From the NCBI GenBank assembly GCA_030673895.1, contig JAUTCR010000057.1:1-64000 (forward strand): a DNA stretch of 64,000 bases. Reading direction: 5' to 3'. The notes beneath the pieces were generated by a model, which did not search any database, was not told the DNA's origin, and saw only the letters and a program-made list of their open reading frames with translations. Positions 7,976 through 15,909 of the stretch are shown here, piece by piece. The position numbers and the translations under genes are program-made. The first letter of the stretch is position 1, and every line of letters starts with the position of its first letter. Source of the DNA: Verrucomicrobiota bacterium JB023. Its GTDB lineage: Bacteria; Verrucomicrobiota; Verrucomicrobiia; Verrucomicrobiales; Akkermansiaceae.

Positions 7976-9655
7976 CTAGCCTTCTCTCCCTTCTCCCGCC
8001 TCTTCCCAACGAGCCACGAGGTCGGGGCGTTGCTGCTCGAAGACATTATAGACATGGCGGGAAAAGCTCATGGCAGCCTGCGTGTATAAGTTGAAGGCGG
8101 CATCGACCCCCGTGGCCCGCAGCTCGCGGACTTCTTCCTCATATTGCGCGCTCACGACAACGACGCCTTGGAAGTCGTGCCGCTTCAAGGTTTCGACCGC
8201 GTGGACGTTGGCTTGATGGGCAGGCATCGCTAGAACGACCAGCTCCAGAGCTTCCTTCGGGCACACCCGTTCCCAAAAGTCGGAATCTGTCGCATCGGCG
8301 AGGGTCACATTCCGCTCCGCCTCCTTGTGCAGCTGGACCTTGCCGGGATCACGATCAAATCCGATCACGTGACCGGGGAAGCGGATCTCGAGCGAGTGAT
8401 AGGCAGCAGTTCCGATCCTTCCCATTCCAAAGACGGCCACCTTCTCTCCTCTCCGCATAATGGGAAGATCGTCCCGATGCCTGCCTCGACGCTGCAACTT
8501 CTTCAGAGGATCGCTGATCGGATCATACAGTTCCTCCGCCTTGCGATTCAATGGAGCAGCGAGCAAAAAGCTGAACGAGACCGCCAAGGCCAAGGCCACC
8601 AACCATTCTTCACCCAGCCACCCCTTATTGACGCCGAGGGCCATCACGATGAGGCCGAATTCGCTATAGGTTGAGAGAGAGGACGCCGCCATCCAAGAAG
8701 TCCGCGCCCGCAGCTTGAAGCGGGTGAACAAAACGAGGAAACCAAGGCTTTTGAGCGGGAGCAGCAGCGTCAGGAGCAAGGCCCAGCCCAGGCCGCCCCA
8801 CGAGAGAGGGGCTTGCAGTCCAATCTGGAGAAAAAAGCCAACCAACAAGAGATCGGTGATCCCGCCCAGAGCCTTCTTCAATTCCTTGGCCCGGGGATGG
8901 CTTCCGACGAGAACGCCAACGAAGAGAGCGCCCAGATCCGCCTTCATCCCCACCGAAGCGAAGCCCTTGGCTCCGACCACGAGAGCGAGAAAAAAACCAC
9001 ACAGCGCAACCAACTCGCCGTGGCCAGCCGCCTTCAAGAGCCACCCCAGCAAAGGCTTGGCGAGAAGAAGGGCCGGGACGAGAAGCAGGACCCAAGGCGA
9101 AGGCATTTCCCCCTTGGAAAGAGTCAGGAAGAGAACCGCCACAATATCTTGCATGACCAACACCCCGATGGCGAGGCGACCATGCAGAGACCCGAAGTCT
9201 CCATTCTCGGTCAGGGATTTGACCGCGAAGACGGTGCTCGAGAAACTCAGCGCGAAGGCAATTAGAAAGGCCGTCTGCCAATCCATTCCCATGGCTGGTG
9301 CCAGTAAGATGGCCGCTCCGTAAACAAGGGGAGCGAAAAGGAAGAGGACGAGAGTCGCGTGCGTCAACGTCCCGGCCCAAATTTCGGCACTCGCCAGATT
9401 CTTGACCCTCAGCTTGAGGCCGATGCTGAAGAGCATCAAGGTCACCCCCAAGTCGGCGATCAGGGACAAGGTTTCGCCCCCTTCTTTCCCTAACCCTTGG
9501 AGAACGAAGCCAGCGACGAGGAAGCCAACCATGGGCGGGAGCCGCACCATCTGAGCTAGCAGGCCGAAGACAAAGGCAATGGCGAGGAGAAGGGCATCCA
9601 TCCGCGGCTCTTCTAGCAAACCTCCTTGGAAGCACCAGAGCGCGTTCCCGGTCAT
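7976..9655 (-). CDS. CPA2-family cation:proton antiporter with RCK (TrkA-N) domain
   Basis: Inner-membrane monovalent cation/proton antiporter of the Kef/CPA2 type. The N-terminal ~370 residues contain about 12 hydrophobic segments with family motifs (PPMVGFLVAGFVLQ, ADLGVTLMLFSIGLKL, ALSFSSTVFAVK). A cytosolic regulatory domain follows, with the Rossmann nucleotide-binding signature FGMGRIGTAAYHSLE and an acidic residue at the end of strand two (GFDRDPGK). The first ATG (9655) overlaps the stop of the upstream methyltransferase gene as ATGA, suggesting translational coupling; ATG 9601, starting MDALLLAIAF, is an equally plausible start right at the first membrane segment. Transported ion (K+ or Na+) cannot be told. 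Confidence 0.88.
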   Translation of the reverse strand: MTGNALWCFQGGLLEEPRMDALLLAIAFVFGLLAQMVRLPPMVGFLVAGFVLQGLGKEGGETLSLIADLGVTLMLFSIGLKLRVKNLASAEIWAGTLTHATLVLFLFAPLVYGAAILLAPAMGMDWQTAFLIAFALSFSSTVFAVKSLTENGDFGSLHGRLAIGVLVMQDIVAVLFLTLSKGEMPSPWVLLLVPALLLAKPLLGWLLKAAGHGELVALCGFFLALVVGAKGFASVGMKADLGALFVGVLVGSHPRAKELKKALGGITDLLLVGFFLQIGLQAPLSWGGLGWALLLTLLLPLKSLGFLVLFTRFKLRARTSWMAASSLSTYSEFGLIVMALGVNKGWLGEEWLVALALAVSFSFLLAAPLNRKAEELYDPISDPLKKLQRRGRHRDDLPIMRRGEKVAVFGMGRIGTAAYHSLEIRFPGHVIGFDRDPGKVQLHKEAERNVTLADATDSDFWERVCPKEALELVVLAMPAHQANVHAVETLKRHDFQGVVVVSAQYEEEVRELRATGVDAAFNLYTQAAMSFSRHVYNVFEQQRPDLVARWEEAGEGREG

Positions 9656-10785
9656 GCGGTGTCCGACACGCCGTCCAATCCCTTCCGGAAGCGCTGAACC
9701 TGAAACTTGGTGCCCAGCTGGGCCGGATGGGTCAACGTCATGAATTGACGGACAAATCCCGGGTCGACTTGACCATCGCGGGCCCGCAACAGCTCCTCAC
9801 CGGCCAAGGTCAGGAAACGACCTTGCGTCAAGAGGGGCTCCGGGGTGAGCCCCACCGCGGCGCCCTCTTCCGCGAGGCGCGTCCAATCCACATGCGCGGT
9901 GATATCCAGCGCGCCGGGCGCGACCAAGGGATCCTCGCCACGGCGATGCTTCCCATAGGTTTGCAAGGTCCCGGTCCGGCGCTCGGGATGGTAGTAATCA
10001 GCCTGCTCGAAGCCGTAGTCTGGCAGGACCACCTCTCCCCGGCGCAGCACACCGGCCATTCCTGCGAGAAGCTCCTGCAGAGGCACCCTGACTTCACTCT
10101 CGTAACCATCGGGCAAACCAGCGGGCAAGGAGGAAAGAAGCTTGGCCAACTCGCCCGCAGGCTCGGCCAATTCAAAGGCGAAATCGCCTTCGCGGATGGC
10201 CACCCGCTTTTCGAGCCACCGGCCCTCCTCACGTCGGACAAGCCAGAAAGGGATGGCATCGATCAGCTCATTGGCCAGCACCATGCCGTCGACGGCATCG
10301 AGCTCTGCCGGCTCCGCAACGACCTGCACCCCCGGCAGAGCGGCTGCCAAGGCCTCCCGCTTGCCGGCCAAGGGCTCAATCACAGCATAAGTGAGGGCCT
10401 GGCCGAAGTCATCCTCATCACCCACCGCGCTCAAGACATCGCGGGCCAGTTGCCCATCCTCGCTCCCCCACTCCACGATCCGGAAACGGGCCGGCGAGCC
10501 CAACTCGAGCCACAACTTCCGCGCATGCTCCGCCATCAGGGTGCCGAAGAGGTCGCCCACCGAGACCGCCGTGAAGAAATCACCCTCGCGGCCTGTGCGG
10601 CGCTGGTGAGGCCGCGCGTAATAGCCGTCCCGCTCGTCATAAAGAACCACCGAGAGGTATTCAGGAAAAGAAATCGACCCTTGGGTGTCGATCCTCCTCA
10701 TGACCTCCTCCTGCAAACGAGCGATTGCCCCGGCGTCCTCGGGCAGGTAAGACGGGTTGTCGGAGCGCAGCGGGTCGGAAGTCAC
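9652..10785 (-). CDS. SAM-dependent methyltransferase, MidA/NDUFAF7 family
   Basis: Relative of the mitochondrial complex I assembly methyltransferase NDUFAF7 (MidA), which methylates an arginine of a complex I subunit; the bacterial substrate is not established. Motifs: ISFPEYLSVVLYDERDGYY, GREGDFFTAVSVGDLFG, the SAM-binding strand FRIVEWGSEDGQLARDVL, and VLANELIDAIPFWLV. Its length of 377 residues is normal. It starts with GTG at 10785, which keeps the conserved N-terminal helix (IARLQEEVMRRI). The start is only 9 bp from that of the divergent penicillin-binding protein, so the two promoters must lie inside each other's coding region or upstream sequence. The antiporter gene follows with a 4-bp overlap. 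Confidence 0.87.
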   Translation of the reverse strand: MTSDPLRSDNPSYLPEDAGAIARLQEEVMRRIDTQGSISFPEYLSVVLYDERDGYYARPHQRRTGREGDFFTAVSVGDLFGTLMAEHARKLWLELGSPARFRIVEWGSEDGQLARDVLSAVGDEDDFGQALTYAVIEPLAGKREALAAALPGVQVVAEPAELDAVDGMVLANELIDAIPFWLVRREEGRWLEKRVAIREGDFAFELAEPAGELAKLLSSLPAGLPDGYESEVRVPLQELLAGMAGVLRRGEVVLPDYGFEQADYYHPERRTGTLQTYGKHRRGEDPLVAPGALDITAHVDWTRLAEEGAAVGLTPEPLLTQGRFLTLAGEELLRARDGQVDPGFVRQFMTLTHPAQLGTKFQVQRFRKGLDGVSDTA

Positions 10786-10794
10786 TTGGCCGAG

Positions 10795-13338
10795 ATGAAG
10801 AAAAAAGAAAACAGACTCAAGAAGAAGCGTTTTTATCAGCGCAAAGGGCTATGGATCTTCCTGTTCAGCTGTCTGCTGCTCGCGGGTCTCTCTCTCGCTC
10901 TCTTTGACCACCTCTACTTAAAGAAATTCCGTGAACGGGCGACCACCTACGACATGGAACGAGTCGATGACCTTGAAATTCCGAGTGTCATCTTTGACCG
11001 CAACAAGGTTCTCATCGGGCGAAGCTACGACCAAAACCGTTCCATCGTCACCATCGACAAGGTGCCGCCCGCCTTCATCAATGCTCTTCTCGCGCAAGAG
11101 GATCAGCGCTTTTTCGACCACAAGGGCGTGGACTGGGTCGGGGTCGCACGCGCGTTTTACCTGAATTTCAAGGCAGGAGAAACCACCCAGGGTGCGTCCA
11201 CCATCACGATGCAGCTCGCGCGGAACGCTTTCGATCTCCAGAAGGAAGCTGACGAGCGGGGCGAACGAGGCTTCGAGCGCAAGATTGTCGAGTCCTTCGT
11301 CGCTCTGCGAATTGAAGAGCATTACGTGGGTGAGGCAAAGGGCGAGGAGCGAGTCGAACGCAAGAAGCAGCTCCTCGAGATGTATGTGAACCGGGTTCAC
11401 TTCGGCAAAGGCTACTACGGCATCCGGGCTGCCGCCTTGGGCTTTTTTGGCAAGGAGCCCCAGGATTTGACCCTCTCGGAATGTGCCTCGCTGGTCTGCT
11501 GCATCAAAAACCCGTTCTATATCAATCCGATCCGTAATCCGGAGCGGAATATGAAGGAGCGCAACCACGTCTTCAACCGCATGAAGGCGGAGGGCTCCAT
11601 CACCAATGCGGAGTGGGAAACGCTGACCGCCGAGCCAGTGGTCACCAATCCCAAACCTCTCCGACGGGGCACCTCCCACCTTTATGAAAAGGTCGTCAAC
11701 CTCACCCGGGACATCGTGGGTGACGACGCCATGTCGCGCGGAGGATTCAAGATCTACACCACCGTCGACCGCGATATCCAGCAGACCGCGCGGGAACAAC
11801 TTCGCAATCAGCTCCTCGAGATTGAGAAGCACGAGGGCTACCGCCACCCGCTCTTTTCAGCCTTCAACAAGGGCCCCGGCAATACCCCGGAGTATCTCCA
11901 GGGTGCCGTTCTGGTGACCGATAGCGAGACGGGAGCCGTTCTCGCCCACGTGGGAGGCCGGGACTTCTTCCACTCTCAATACGATTTCATCGAATCAGGC
12001 CGCCGTCCGCTTGGGACGACCTTTCTTCCCGTTGTCTACACAGCAGCCTTCGAGCGGGGCCTGAGCCCGGCCACTCTCGTGGATGATCTGCCCATGGACG
12101 CCCGCGAGGTCGCGCTAGGTGGCACCGAGGGGATTCTCGGCGAGTGGGGCGCGGAGCGGCTCGACCCCGTCTATGAGAGCTTGAATACCCTTGATGGAGG
12201 CAGCAGCCGCCCCATCACCGCTCGCAAGGCTCTCCGAGATTCCAAGGTCGCGGCGACAGTGCGGCTGGGTAACGAGATCGGCATTGCTGCCGTGGCCGCT
12301 CAAGCCAAGAAGATGGACCTCCCGCTGGGTTCCGGTGAGATGCTCGCCCGTCTCCTCTTGGGTTGGGAACAAGCTTCTCTCTGGGAAATCTGCCGGGCCT
12401 ACTCCGCCTACTCGCAAGGAGGGCTTGCTCCGCAAAACACCTACTATGTCGAGCGCATCCTCGATGCCGAGAACAAGGAAGTCTACCGGGCTCCGGAGAG
12501 CGTCCGCCTGAAGAAGCAGTACTTTAGCGATGCGACAGCCTATCAGGTTCATTCCATCCTCTCGGACGTGACCAGCCATGGCAACTTGGCCGACTTGCGG
12601 GGAGAGCTCGCAGATCCCGACCTCACCGTAGTGAAGACCGGGACGAACCATAATTTCTCCGATGCTTGGGCTGTCGGGTATAATGGAAAACTCACCTGCG
12701 GCGTCTGGGTTGGCTTCTGGGATGGGCGGCGCGCCATCCATGACATGGCCTTTGGACGGGATTTGGCCTTTCCGATCTGGTCGAGGGTCATGAATACCGC
12801 TGCCCGTAGTAATCCCGGAGCGGAAGTGCCCCGCCCCGCAACTTTGACCACTGTGCAGCTTTGCGAGGTCTCTGGCAGGAAGGCGACCCGCTATTGCTAC
12901 GAAAGCGTCTTCGATCCCGAGTTCGGGGTCAGTCTCGCCTCCACCGCTTATCCCGAGTATTTGCGGGTGGGACAGGACGAGGTCGGTCTCTGCCCAGTCC
13001 ACGGGACTGGCGGCGTCGCGCCCTCCCAAGATTTTGCCCCTGATACCGAAGAATCCCGCCAGCGCCGCCTCTCCGTTCCTCCGATCATTGTGAGCGAATC
13101 GTCCCTGCTCGGGGACGATCCTTATCAATCGCGCGTCGTCGAGGCTCCCGAGGAGGTCGCCCCCCCGCAGACTGTCGAGAACGAGGAGGAAGAGGGTGAA
13201 GAGGATTCCAAACAGGTCGTTCAGCAGCCACCCTCTCCGGCGGCAACCTTCCGCCTGACCGAGAGCCCGCGTGGTGAGCGGGAAGCGACCATCCGCCTCC
13301 GCACCCCGCCGCGTATCGAGATGCCTGAACAGCAATGA
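10795..13338 (+). CDS. Class A penicillin-binding protein with degenerate transpeptidase site
   Basis: Bifunctional-type peptidoglycan synthase of about 847 residues. A basic N terminus leads into one membrane segment (GLWIFLFSCLLLAGLSLALF). The glycosyltransferase domain (GT51) looks intact: EDQRFFDHKGVDW and TTQGASTITMQLARN. The transpeptidase domain keeps KTGT (K614) but lacks the other catalytic motifs. The SxxK site reads GTTFLP, placing Thr408 and Leu411 where Ser and Lys are required, and the SxN site reads SKV (483-485). It is therefore probably a glycan polymerase without penicillin-sensitive crosslinking activity. The C-terminal ~150 residues are Pro/Glu-rich. ATG 10795 is chosen because the basic leader begins there; in-frame codons upstream are antisense to the methyltransferase. 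Two genes follow with a 4-bp gap and then an overlap. Confidence 0.88.
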   Translation: MKKKENRLKKKRFYQRKGLWIFLFSCLLLAGLSLALFDHLYLKKFRERATTYDMERVDDLEIPSVIFDRNKVLIGRSYDQNRSIVTIDKVPPAFINALLAQEDQRFFDHKGVDWVGVARAFYLNFKAGETTQGASTITMQLARNAFDLQKEADERGERGFERKIVESFVALRIEEHYVGEAKGEERVERKKQLLEMYVNRVHFGKGYYGIRAAALGFFGKEPQDLTLSECASLVCCIKNPFYINPIRNPERNMKERNHVFNRMKAEGSITNAEWETLTAEPVVTNPKPLRRGTSHLYEKVVNLTRDIVGDDAMSRGGFKIYTTVDRDIQQTAREQLRNQLLEIEKHEGYRHPLFSAFNKGPGNTPEYLQGAVLVTDSETGAVLAHVGGRDFFHSQYDFIESGRRPLGTTFLPVVYTAAFERGLSPATLVDDLPMDAREVALGGTEGILGEWGAERLDPVYESLNTLDGGSSRPITARKALRDSKVAATVRLGNEIGIAAVAAQAKKMDLPLGSGEMLARLLLGWEQASLWEICRAYSAYSQGGLAPQNTYYVERILDAENKEVYRAPESVRLKKQYFSDATAYQVHSILSDVTSHGNLADLRGELADPDLTVVKTGTNHNFSDAWAVGYNGKLTCGVWVGFWDGRRAIHDMAFGRDLAFPIWSRVMNTAARSNPGAEVPRPATLTTVQLCEVSGRKATRYCYESVFDPEFGVSLASTAYPEYLRVGQDEVGLCPVHGTGGVAPSQDFAPDTEESRQRRLSVPPIIVSESSLLGDDPYQSRVVEAPEEVAPPQTVENEEEEGEEDSKQVVQQPPSPAATFRLTESPRGEREATIRLRTPPRIEMPEQQ

Positions 13339-13342
13339 TTCC

Positions 13343-14563
13343 ATGAGCCAAGCTTCCCCTCCCTCACCCGTGTGGCAGGCCTACATGTGCCCTACCTGCC
13401 GGGGACTCTTCCGCGTCCGGGACTCCAGTGTCCCCCAGGTGCGGTGCCCCCTCTGCACCGCCGTCTCCCCTCTCCCTGCCGAGGCTCCGCAATCAGCTCC
13501 GCCACAATCTTCGCCGCAATCTCCGCAAGATGATCCAGCAACCACGGCGGCAGAGGCACCCCGTCCAGTCGAGCCCGCCAGCGTTCCGGCCCCCGAGCGA
13601 ACCCTGCGCCGCCGGAAGCGAACTAACAAAAAGAAAAACAGCAGCAAGAAAAGTAGCCTCGGCTGGGAGGACCTGGCCAGCCTGAACCAGGATCGCCAGA
13701 CCCGTCTGGAGCGCTTTTTCTGGGTCGCGTCTCTCATCGTGCTAACCGGTGCCGGCGCTATCTTCGGCTTTCTCCTCCTGAGAGAGAATCACAACAACCG
13801 CGGCAACAACGCCGCTCCCCAAGTTCCCGTCGTTCTCACTGAGGAGACGGAGAGCATAGAGATGCAAACCTTCCGCAACTTCTCTGACTACGATGTCGAT
13901 GAGGCGCGGGAGAATGTGCGACGCTTTCTGACTGCGGAATCGTTCGAGGACTACGCGGACCTCATCCGCTTCCCCGATCAAGTGATGCCCCTCGTGCGGG
14001 AATACTACCGCAGCCATCGCTACGAGCCCATTGCTCCGAGAAGCGTGGAAAGCGATGGCCGCAGCCAGATCGCCAACGATCTCATCAGCATCACAGTCAC
14101 GATGCCCGACTTTTCCAAGAAGCCTATCGCGCTGCAAGTCACCGAGGAGGGGCGCTCACTCATCGACTGGGAAAGCTGGGTCTCCTACTGCGAGCGCCCT
14201 TGGGACGACTTTCTCGCAAATCGGATCACTGAGGAAACCCTCGTCCGCGTGCGCGTCAGTGGCTCTGCCTACTTCAACTACGGCTTTCAGGATGACAAAT
14301 GGCGCTGCTATCGGCTGGAGCGGCCCGATGATGAAGCGGTCGCCTTCGGCTACCTGCCCCTCGACTCACCGATGCACACCCAGCTCCCCAGCCATTTTCG
14401 CTCGGAGGGCAGTTACATTCTCAAGGTCCGCTTCCCCGAGGAGGCCACGAGCCCTGATCAGGTGATCATCACCGACTTCCTCACCGAGGGCTGGGTATTC
14501 CCCACTGGCTACTACGAGGAGGCCTCGGCAGAATCCAGAGAAGAAACAACGACCCCGGAATGA
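13343..14563 (+). CDS. Zinc-ribbon single-pass membrane protein, unknown function
   Basis: Protein of 406 residues. Near the N terminus two CxxC knuckles (CPTC and CPLC, about 20 residues apart) form a probable zinc ribbon. A Pro/Ala/Gln-rich linker and a strongly basic stretch (RRKRTNKKKNSSKKSS) follow, then one membrane helix around residue 130-155 (WVASLIVLTGAGAIFGFLLL). The remaining ~250 residues form a soluble domain I do not recognise (YADLIRFPDQVMPLVREYY, LIDWESWVSYCERPWDDFL). The basic stretch before the helix predicts the ribbon in the cytosol and the large domain outside. It begins 4 bp after the PBP stop and overlaps the next gene by 4 bp (ATGA), so the three are surely one operon; a role in envelope growth is an inference. 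Confidence 0.75.
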   Translation: MSQASPPSPVWQAYMCPTCRGLFRVRDSSVPQVRCPLCTAVSPLPAEAPQSAPPQSSPQSPQDDPATTAAEAPRPVEPASVPAPERTLRRRKRTNKKKNSSKKSSLGWEDLASLNQDRQTRLERFFWVASLIVLTGAGAIFGFLLLRENHNNRGNNAAPQVPVVLTEETESIEMQTFRNFSDYDVDEARENVRRFLTAESFEDYADLIRFPDQVMPLVREYYRSHRYEPIAPRSVESDGRSQIANDLISITVTMPDFSKKPIALQVTEEGRSLIDWESWVSYCERPWDDFLANRITEETLVRVRVSGSAYFNYGFQDDKWRCYRLERPDDEAVAFGYLPLDSPMHTQLPSHFRSEGSYILKVRFPEEATSPDQVIITDFLTEGWVFPTGYYEEASAESREETTTPE

Positions 14564-15909
14564 CGTCACTAGAGAAAGCCCTGCAACTGAATCTCAATCC
14601 CTCCGTTTACGGAGTCTTCGCAGAAATTGGAGCAGGTCAAGAGGTGGCCAATTGGTTCTTCCGAGCCTCGGCATCCGCCGGCACCGTCGCAAAGACCATC
14701 TCGGCCTACGACATGACGATGTCCGACGCCATCTACGGGAAGGCTCGTCGCTACGTCTCGCGTGAGCGGGTGAAGTCCATGCTCAATCACGAATGGGATA
14801 TCCTGACGGAGAGACTCGGGCCCAAGCGAGGTGAGGACACTTGCTTCTTCGCCTACTGCAATACCGTGAGAGCACGCGGCTATCGCGATTCGGCGGAATG
14901 CCATGGCTGGATGGGACTTCGCCTCCAGACCAGACCGGGAGGCCCCCCCGGCGACATTATCCTGCACGTCCGCCTTCTCGATGATGAGAACGTCGACCAG
15001 ATGGAAGCCCTCGGCACTGTCGGCCTCAACTTCATCCACGCAGCCATTCACCATCGCGATAACCTGGAGGGATTCGTGACCCATCTGCTGGATAACGTGG
15101 GCAATGAACGCGTCGAGATCGACATGCTCAAGTTCATCGGTGAACCCTTCCAATTCATCGACAACCGCATCTGCGCCCTCCAGCTGGTCACCAATGGCCT
15201 CACCCAGACGGCGATGTTCCTCCCCGATGGCGAAGTGGTGCAACCTTCCGAGATTCTCTACAAGAAGCCGGTCCTCCTCCTCCGCGGCTCCTTCAACCCC
15301 GTGACCAAGCTCCATCTCGATATGCTCAAGCAAGCCCGCGAGCTTCCCGGCACCGGGGGCGAGTCCGCGATCGAGATTTGTGAGATCTCAATGAACAATC
15401 TCCTCCGGGGCGAGGAGATTGACTACATCGACTTCATCGACCGCGCCGATACCCTCCAGGCTCTCGGCAAAACGGTGATCGTCTCCAGCTGTGCGGAATT
15501 CTATCGCATCGTAGAGGTTCTCCGACGCTACACGAATGCGCCGGTCGGCGTGATTCTCTCCATTGGCTTGCTCAACGAGCTCTTCAAGGAGAAGTGGTCC
15601 CAACATCTCGATGGCGGCATCCTCGAATCCTTTGGCCGCCTCTTCAAGGAAGGCGTCCGGCTCCTCGTCTCGCCTTGGAAGAATCGCCAAACAGGAGAAT
15701 TGGTCACCGCGACCAATTTCCTTCCTCCTCGCAAGTTTTCTTCCTTCTACGATTTCCTTCGTAGCAATGGGCATGTCCTCGATTTGCCCTGCTCGGACGA
15801 AGCACTCCTGGAGTTCACCCCACGTGACATCCAGCACATGAAGGAGGCTGGGGATCCGAGATGGGAAAGTTTCGTGCCCGATGTCGAGAAAGCAGCGCTC
15901 AACCGCTGA
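14560..15909 (+). CDS. Conserved protein with C-terminal nucleotidyltransferase-like motif
   Basis: Soluble protein of 449 residues without signal peptide or membrane helix. The first ~235 residues are a conserved domain of unknown role (FAEIGAGQEVANWFFRAS, AYDMTMSDAIYG, ECHGWMGLRLQT, PSEILYKKPVLL). At residues 243-252 the sequence GSFNPVTKLH resembles the GxFNPxHxGH phosphate-binding loop of adenylyltransferases such as NadD, with Thr249 and His252 in the (H/T)xGH positions and Leu in place of Gly. An alpha/beta region follows (VIVSSCAEFYRIVEVLRRY, VGVILSIGLLNELF). I do not see the second NadD motif (SxTxxR), so nucleotide transfer is unproven. It is translationally coupled to the zinc-ribbon gene through ATGA. 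Confidence 0.7.
   Translation: MTSLEKALQLNLNPSVYGVFAEIGAGQEVANWFFRASASAGTVAKTISAYDMTMSDAIYGKARRYVSRERVKSMLNHEWDILTERLGPKRGEDTCFFAYCNTVRARGYRDSAECHGWMGLRLQTRPGGPPGDIILHVRLLDDENVDQMEALGTVGLNFIHAAIHHRDNLEGFVTHLLDNVGNERVEIDMLKFIGEPFQFIDNRICALQLVTNGLTQTAMFLPDGEVVQPSEILYKKPVLLLRGSFNPVTKLHLDMLKQARELPGTGGESAIEICEISMNNLLRGEEIDYIDFIDRADTLQALGKTVIVSSCAEFYRIVEVLRRYTNAPVGVILSIGLLNELFKEKWSQHLDGGILESFGRLFKEGVRLLVSPWKNRQTGELVTATNFLPPRKFSSFYDFLRSNGHVLDLPCSDEALLEFTPRDIQHMKEAGDPRWESFVPDVEKAALNR

Follow-up and report, generated by a model that had tools for sequence, protein, structure and literature searches.

Class A penicillin-binding proteins (PBPs) are treated in genome counts as bifunctional, beta-lactam-sensitive enzymes. 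In Escherichia coli, PBP1b rendered inactive in its transpeptidase (TP) domain by the S510A substitution still polymerises lipid II, and with the L,D-transpeptidase YcbB as crosslinker, no PBP1b activity beyond that of the glycosyltransferase (GT) is needed (PMC5089857). In a genome-based count, Akkermansia has been credited with a class A PBP (PMC8406291).

Here, we describe a class A PBP, P0001, encoded within a window of 64,000 nucleotides from Verrucomicrobiota bacterium JB023. Like E. coli PBP1a and PBP1b and A. baumannii PBP1a, P0001 has an anchor, a GT51 domain, a linker, a PF00905-type domain, the overall fold and the KTGT motif. Unlike them, it is without SxxK and SxN, carries a GGxxGILGEWGxE loop in place of WxPxN, and scores below the cut-off of TIGR02074. 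Judged by its sequence and its modelled structure, P0001 is, with good confidence, a membrane-anchored GT51 glycan polymerase with a retained pseudo-transpeptidase domain, the strands of which would be crosslinked by other enzymes. As with the engineered PBP1b S510A (PMC5089857), we would thus expect a polymerase without DD-transpeptidase activity; however, whereas S510A is a single point mutation, P0001 is natural and fixed class-wide, with three catalytic positions and a loop changed. The expected activity, glycan polymerisation only, is also that of the monofunctional GT51 proteins of the MtgA/SgtB type (TIGR02070), but, in contrast to these, P0001 keeps a full-length, folded and selected TP domain and a C-terminal region.

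Architecture of P0001

The P0001 reading frame is full-length upon translation, with an ATG start and a TGA stop at position 13336 (Table 1). Its architecture is that of a class A PBP, i.e. an anchor and a GT51 domain with catalytic motifs, and a C-terminal PBP/serine transpeptidase fold. The GT51 motifs are intact (E102-D103, G133-A-S-T, R162-K163-x-x-E166, K190 and N199), and residues R82, E102, D103, R119, G133, T138, Q140, K163, E166, K190 and N199 are invariant in 51 orthologues. The Pfam match to PF00905 (residues 370-630) is weak yet above the cut-off (32.5 versus 22.1 bits). In an NCBIfam search, no family reached its cut-off with P0001: TIGR02074 (PBP_1a_fam) scored 377.8 bits, below its cut-off of 508.75, and TIGR02070, the monofunctional GT51 type, scored 102 bits, below 182.65. 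P0001 does not conform to the monofunctional type, the full TP domain and the C-terminal region being retained.

An AlphaFold2 model built with 51 orthologues has a mean pLDDT of 86.4 and a pTM of 0.78. Residues 56-734 of the model match PBP1a/PBP1b structurally, and comparison with A. baumannii PBP1a (3ue1_A) using VIA-align gives a Z of 46.6 and an rmsd of 6.5 Å over 496 residues. C-terminal of the TP domain, C690, C701, C733 and H736 are invariant in a 20-member alignment; on this pattern they are possibly a metal or disulfide site.

Table 1 Features of the P0001 locus, in window coordinates.
Feature	Coordinates	Strand	Residues	Basis or remark
Divergent upstream gene, PF02636 SAM-dependent methyltransferase	9652..10785	-		Pfam
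Class A PBP gene with degenerate transpeptidase domain (P0001)	10795..13338	+	847 aa	Translation, Pfam
N-terminal membrane anchor helix	10843..10917	+	17-41	Hydrophobic stretch; AlphaFold2 helix 17-41
GT51 glycosyltransferase domain	11020..11586	+	76-264	PF00912, 182 bits (Pfam)
Transpeptidase (PF00905) domain core, degenerate	11902..12684	+		PF00905, 32.5 bits
SxxK position, reads T408-T409-F410-L411	12016..12027	+	408-411	Translation, alignment, phmmer against 4oon
Clade-specific loop GGTEGILGEWGAE	12118..12156	+	442-454	Stands where the WxPxN segment precedes SxN
Fortuitous SLN (S462-L-N464), not the SxN motif	12178..12186	+	462-464	Private insertion without counterpart in orthologues (alignment A2)
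SxN position, reads S483-K484-V485	12241..12249	+	483-485	Translation, alignment, phmmer against 4oon
KTGT motif, intact	12634..12645	+	614-617	Translation, alignment
C690, C701, C733 and H736, possible metal or disulfide site	12862..13002		690-736	Invariant, 20-member alignment
Downstream gene, zinc-ribbon-like, probably membrane-spanning	13343..14563	+		Sub-threshold Pfam Zn-ribbon match
Third co-directional gene	14560..15909	+	449 aa	4-bp overlap with the preceding gene; sub-threshold PF01467 match

Two of the three transpeptidase motifs are lost

The initial annotation had read the SxxK site as Thr408-x-x-Leu411 (GTTFLP) and SxN as SKV at 483-485, with KTGT at 614 and the glycosyltransferase motifs complete. 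Translation and alignments bear out this reading throughout. When P0001 is aligned by phmmer to the PBP1a chain 4oon, GTTFLP pairs with GSSFKP, DSKV with KSRN, and KTGT with KTGT. The model places the two altered sites in the same way: the SxxK site opens helix 407-420, residues 483-485 form the loop preceding helix 485-495, and strand 612-617 carries KTGT; all three are within high-confidence blocks and positioned as in active PBPs. The description of the protein as having three damaged motifs stands only in so far as three residues are substituted; the damaged motifs number two, KTGT being intact. Thus, measured against an active serine DD-transpeptidase, P0001 has KTG(T) but neither SxxK nor SxN.

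Intact motifs at shifted positions were also sought. No relocated SxxK was found within the TP domain, the sole SxxK of P0001 being located at residue 693, beyond that domain. An SLN at 462-464 was rejected as a shifted SxN since it lies, unaligned, inside an insertion of about 10 residues that is missing from orthologues. Because both the Ser and the Lys are missing, no serine acyl enzyme is possible.

The substitutions are conserved among relatives

A search for relatives returned a match to P0001 in 58 of 58 genomes, and the orthologues were then aligned. In a quick IQ-TREE tree with motif columns excluded (a short search, without bootstrap, in which support is given as SH-aLRT alone), the 79 orthologue rows group together with a support of 92. 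A second degenerate lineage of 3 rows adjoins this group (82 rows jointly, support 95), and the intact paralogues are separate from these 82 rows with a support of 100. The taxonomic family of the window is a single group as well (43 rows, support 100). Named records in the clade, L088 (Akkermansia sp.), L092 (Akkermansiaceae bacterium) and L090 (Spartobacteria bacterium), point to Verrucomicrobiota. L088 pairs in the tree with L245 of genus g3; g3 is therefore probably Akkermansia, and the family of the window probably Akkermansiaceae. L093, which bears an Akkermansia muciniphila label, reads TxxT/GxN, and its motifs and tree position are at odds with L088 and genus g3; this label was accordingly given no weight.

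Within the window's family, 34 of 36 genomes have an orthologue; for the other two, G017 and G030, only an intact class A PBP was seen. All 34 aligned family members (P0001 included) have Thr for Ser and a residue other than Lys at position 411, Asn is replaced by I, V or L, and K614 is kept in every member whose alignment covers that region. The catalytic residues are likewise absent from 13 further orthologues of the probable Akkermansia genus. Outside this family, members of the order and class mostly carry an orthologue that reads TxxT or TxxL/F and has SxN or GxN. Position 411 varies across orthologues (L, F, T, I, K, H, V, Q), and some lineages have degraded versions of KTGT (KTST, QTST, KGGS); the K614 position is Lys in 77 of 78 clade rows, and S483 is invariant in a 20-member alignment. 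As controls, all 74 class A PBPs from other phyla and all 23 intact Verrucomicrobiota paralogues have S, K, S and N at the corresponding positions. The substitutions are thus conserved: the Ser-to-Thr change is found almost throughout the class, the losses of Lys and Asn are fixed family-wide, and the TP-dead form has been retained across a whole Verrucomicrobiota class, apparently with Akkermansia among its carriers.

Thr occupies the nucleophile site in every orthologue read across the class except one, L061 (206-2686, + strand, genome G050). L061 is the sole clade member with SxxK/SxN/KTGT and is nested among Thr-type members; its state is either a retention or a reversion.

Six orthologues (L058, L059, L064, L090, L253 and L254) combine TxxK with KTGT, five of them with SxN and L058 with GxN; by their motifs these are possible threonine-nucleophile transpeptidases. 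Might Thr408 of P0001 itself then be a working nucleophile, the lineage having exchanged its serine acyl enzyme for one based on threonine, with weak activity left? That Thr is fixed, and that TxxK, SxN and KTGT together would make a plausible threonine enzyme, would fit such a scheme. However, the general-base Lys (L411) and the Asn of SxN (V485) are gone in P0001 and in all family members, no other conserved Lys is evidently placed for the role of Lys411, and K484 is the middle residue of SxN. We thus hold a threonine acyl enzyme in P0001 to be very unlikely. A historical version of the idea has the clade passing via a functional threonine-nucleophile transpeptidase, a state that the TxxK/SxN/KTGT members (L059, L064, L090, L253 and L254) would still represent, and later losing first Lys and then Asn on its way to a regulatory pseudo-transpeptidase in which the GEWG loop is conserved, with P0001 as the end point; read from sequence comparison, this history seems to us unlikely. 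A correlated loss of Lys411 and Asn485 was considered and dropped, the 2-4 independent pairs for it (0 against) being too few (median p 0.25).

A signature loop beside the degenerate site

Intact class A PBPs have a W-x-P-x-N-type segment ahead of SxN, where the clade instead has GGxxGILGEWGxE. A simple pattern of this loop matches 79 of the 83 Thr-type rows and none of the 35 Ser-type rows. Since the Ser-keeping L061 (GGADGLLGEWAVE) and L175 (VGGVLGEWSTE) bear modified versions, the loop may be older than the Ser loss.

The TP domain might also be a binding module: its pocket would still bind the stem peptide or some other ligand non-catalytically and control the GT domain or its partners, and the GEWG loop would be a new element of the site. 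The fixed Thr408, the near-universal K614, the invariant S483, the conservation of the loop beside the site, and a TP dN well below dS (see below) are all consistent with a preserved pocket. On the other hand, position 411 is variable, KTGT is eroded in some lineages, and K411 and N485 have both given way to hydrophobic residues in the family, suggesting packing over ligand contact. Such a module is possible but, on balance, doubtful; it is a variant of our preferred explanation, a polymerase with a retained pseudo-transpeptidase domain, and the confidence given to each overlaps with that given to the other.

The transpeptidase domain is under purifying selection

In orthologue pairs with measurable dS, dN/dS is about 0.04-0.16 for the TP domain and 0.02-0.14 for the GT domain, values that are approximate as synonymous sites are saturated in many pairs. 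Because dN is far below dS and the PBP fold is confidently modelled, the TP domain is maintained, i.e. it is under purifying selection and not neutral. Mean column entropy in the TP domain is 1.90 bits for the dead clade versus 1.47 for the intact paralogues, and in the GT domain 1.47 versus 1.26 (78 versus 23 rows in each case); since the samples are unequal and GT entropy is raised too, at most a mild relaxation can be claimed.

Decay of a pseudogene, a sequencing error or a chimeric assembly would also yield a loss of catalytic residues. However, the reading frame is full-length, three congener orthologues (65-68% identity to P0001) and dozens of genomes bear the identical losses, dN is well below dS, and synteny is conserved. 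The losses shared by congeners led us to reject a pseudogene or sequencing error, and the dN/dS values, the invariant GT residues and the conserved neighbours argue strongly against a pseudogene; explanations of this kind are extremely improbable.

Upstream, the PF02636 gene adjoins orthologues in the window's family as well as in others of the class, a conserved neighbour that supports orthology. Downstream, the zinc-ribbon-like gene starts 4 bp past the PBP stop, is co-directional and is a conserved neighbour in the family, and the next gene is kept at the same place beside orthologues. The PBP gene and the first of these likely belong to the same operon, which apparently includes both. A Pfam search assigned no confident family to either product; the two are candidate partners of the PBP.

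Other wall enzymes in the genome and its relatives

The genome of the window encodes four GT51 proteins. The separate intact PBP that the initial annotation had suggested looking for is present on contig C8 (L044): it shares the domain order of P0001 and 37% identity with it but, unlike P0001, has GSTFKP/SRN/KTGT complete. Contig C4 (L042:545-4644, - strand) carries an intact class B PBP of 663 aa (GSVFKP/SCN/KTGT) together with a second TP-dead class A PBP of 703 aa (GTAFLP/SKL/FSGS), the start of which overlaps the stop of the class B gene by 4 nt. This gene pair recurs in G038 (L173) and in G036 (L175, where the partner reads SxxL/SxN/KSGT). It is possibly a split polymerase/crosslinker operon, and its resemblance to such a division of labour is in line with the polymerase reading of P0001. 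The GT51 protein of contig C33 (L043) is 566 aa long, and of its TP domain a truncated remnant (GPVFEP) is left. L043, L076 and L077 all hold a GT51 protein of about 550-570 aa with this remnant, and in G009 and G018 a gene similar to the C33 type is in tandem with an intact class A PBP.

Further wall enzymes encoded in the window's genome are two SEDS proteins, 12 YkuD-type proteins and four class B PBPs in which the SxxK serine is present. Crosslinkers are therefore available there, namely the class B PBPs, the intact class A PBP and the YkuD proteins. The one-contig genome G029 of genus g3 yielded a single SEDS protein.

G007 and G019, two genomes of one genus with a completeness of about 90% each, yielded three class B PBPs and no GT51 protein other than the TP-dead orthologue. 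This bears on whether P0001 might be a purely structural protein in which neither half is enzymatic, the scaffold option raised in the initial annotation, with which the degenerate TP half would agree. A sole GT51 protein argues against it, as does the invariance of the GT51 catalytic motifs in 51 orthologues whereas the TP motifs vary, and we rate a purely structural role as quite unlikely.

Discussion

By analogy with PBP1b S510A, and because its GT motifs are intact, P0001 most likely makes glycan strands for others to crosslink. The initial proposal, a glycan polymerase leaving crosslinking to others, or a scaffold, gains sequence-based support from the conserved losses and the separate intact PBP. 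Mechanistically, the GT51 domain would polymerise lipid II; without an acyl-enzyme, P0001 would neither crosslink nor be acylated by beta-lactams, and crosslinking of its strands would fall to enzymes acting in trans, whether class B PBPs, the intact class A PBP or L,D-transpeptidases. As for the dead TP domain, it would be kept as a structural or regulatory module, serving the active arrangement of the GT domain, the docking of partners or the guidance of the nascent strand. The simplest reading is that it lends structural support or serves in docking, the main rival being a non-catalytic ligand pocket; some pocket function may remain, as KTGT, the family-wide S483 and the fixed Thr exceed the needs of plain decay.

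The architecture of P0001 is known. What is new here is the class-wide conservation, the diagnostic GGxxGILGEWG loop and the second TP-dead class A PBP, with a gene that overlaps the one for an intact class B PBP. Our searches of the open-licence literature on naturally TP-dead class A PBPs and on Verrucomicrobiota PBPs, which are weak evidence for novelty, returned no description of this form; within their reach, a TP-dead class A PBP that is selected, occurs class-wide and bears a diagnostic loop is undescribed.

Because the class-wide class A PBP orthologue appears to be polymerase-only, genome-based counts are silent on crosslinking. As a natural counterpart of PBP1b S510A, P0001 would offer a direct test of why a TP domain outlives its chemistry, and the graded states SxxK, TxxK, TxxT and TxxL/F make the order of loss testable. 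It would likewise serve to test whether the bacteria that carry it, apparently also the gut genus Akkermansia, keep making glycan under beta-lactams.
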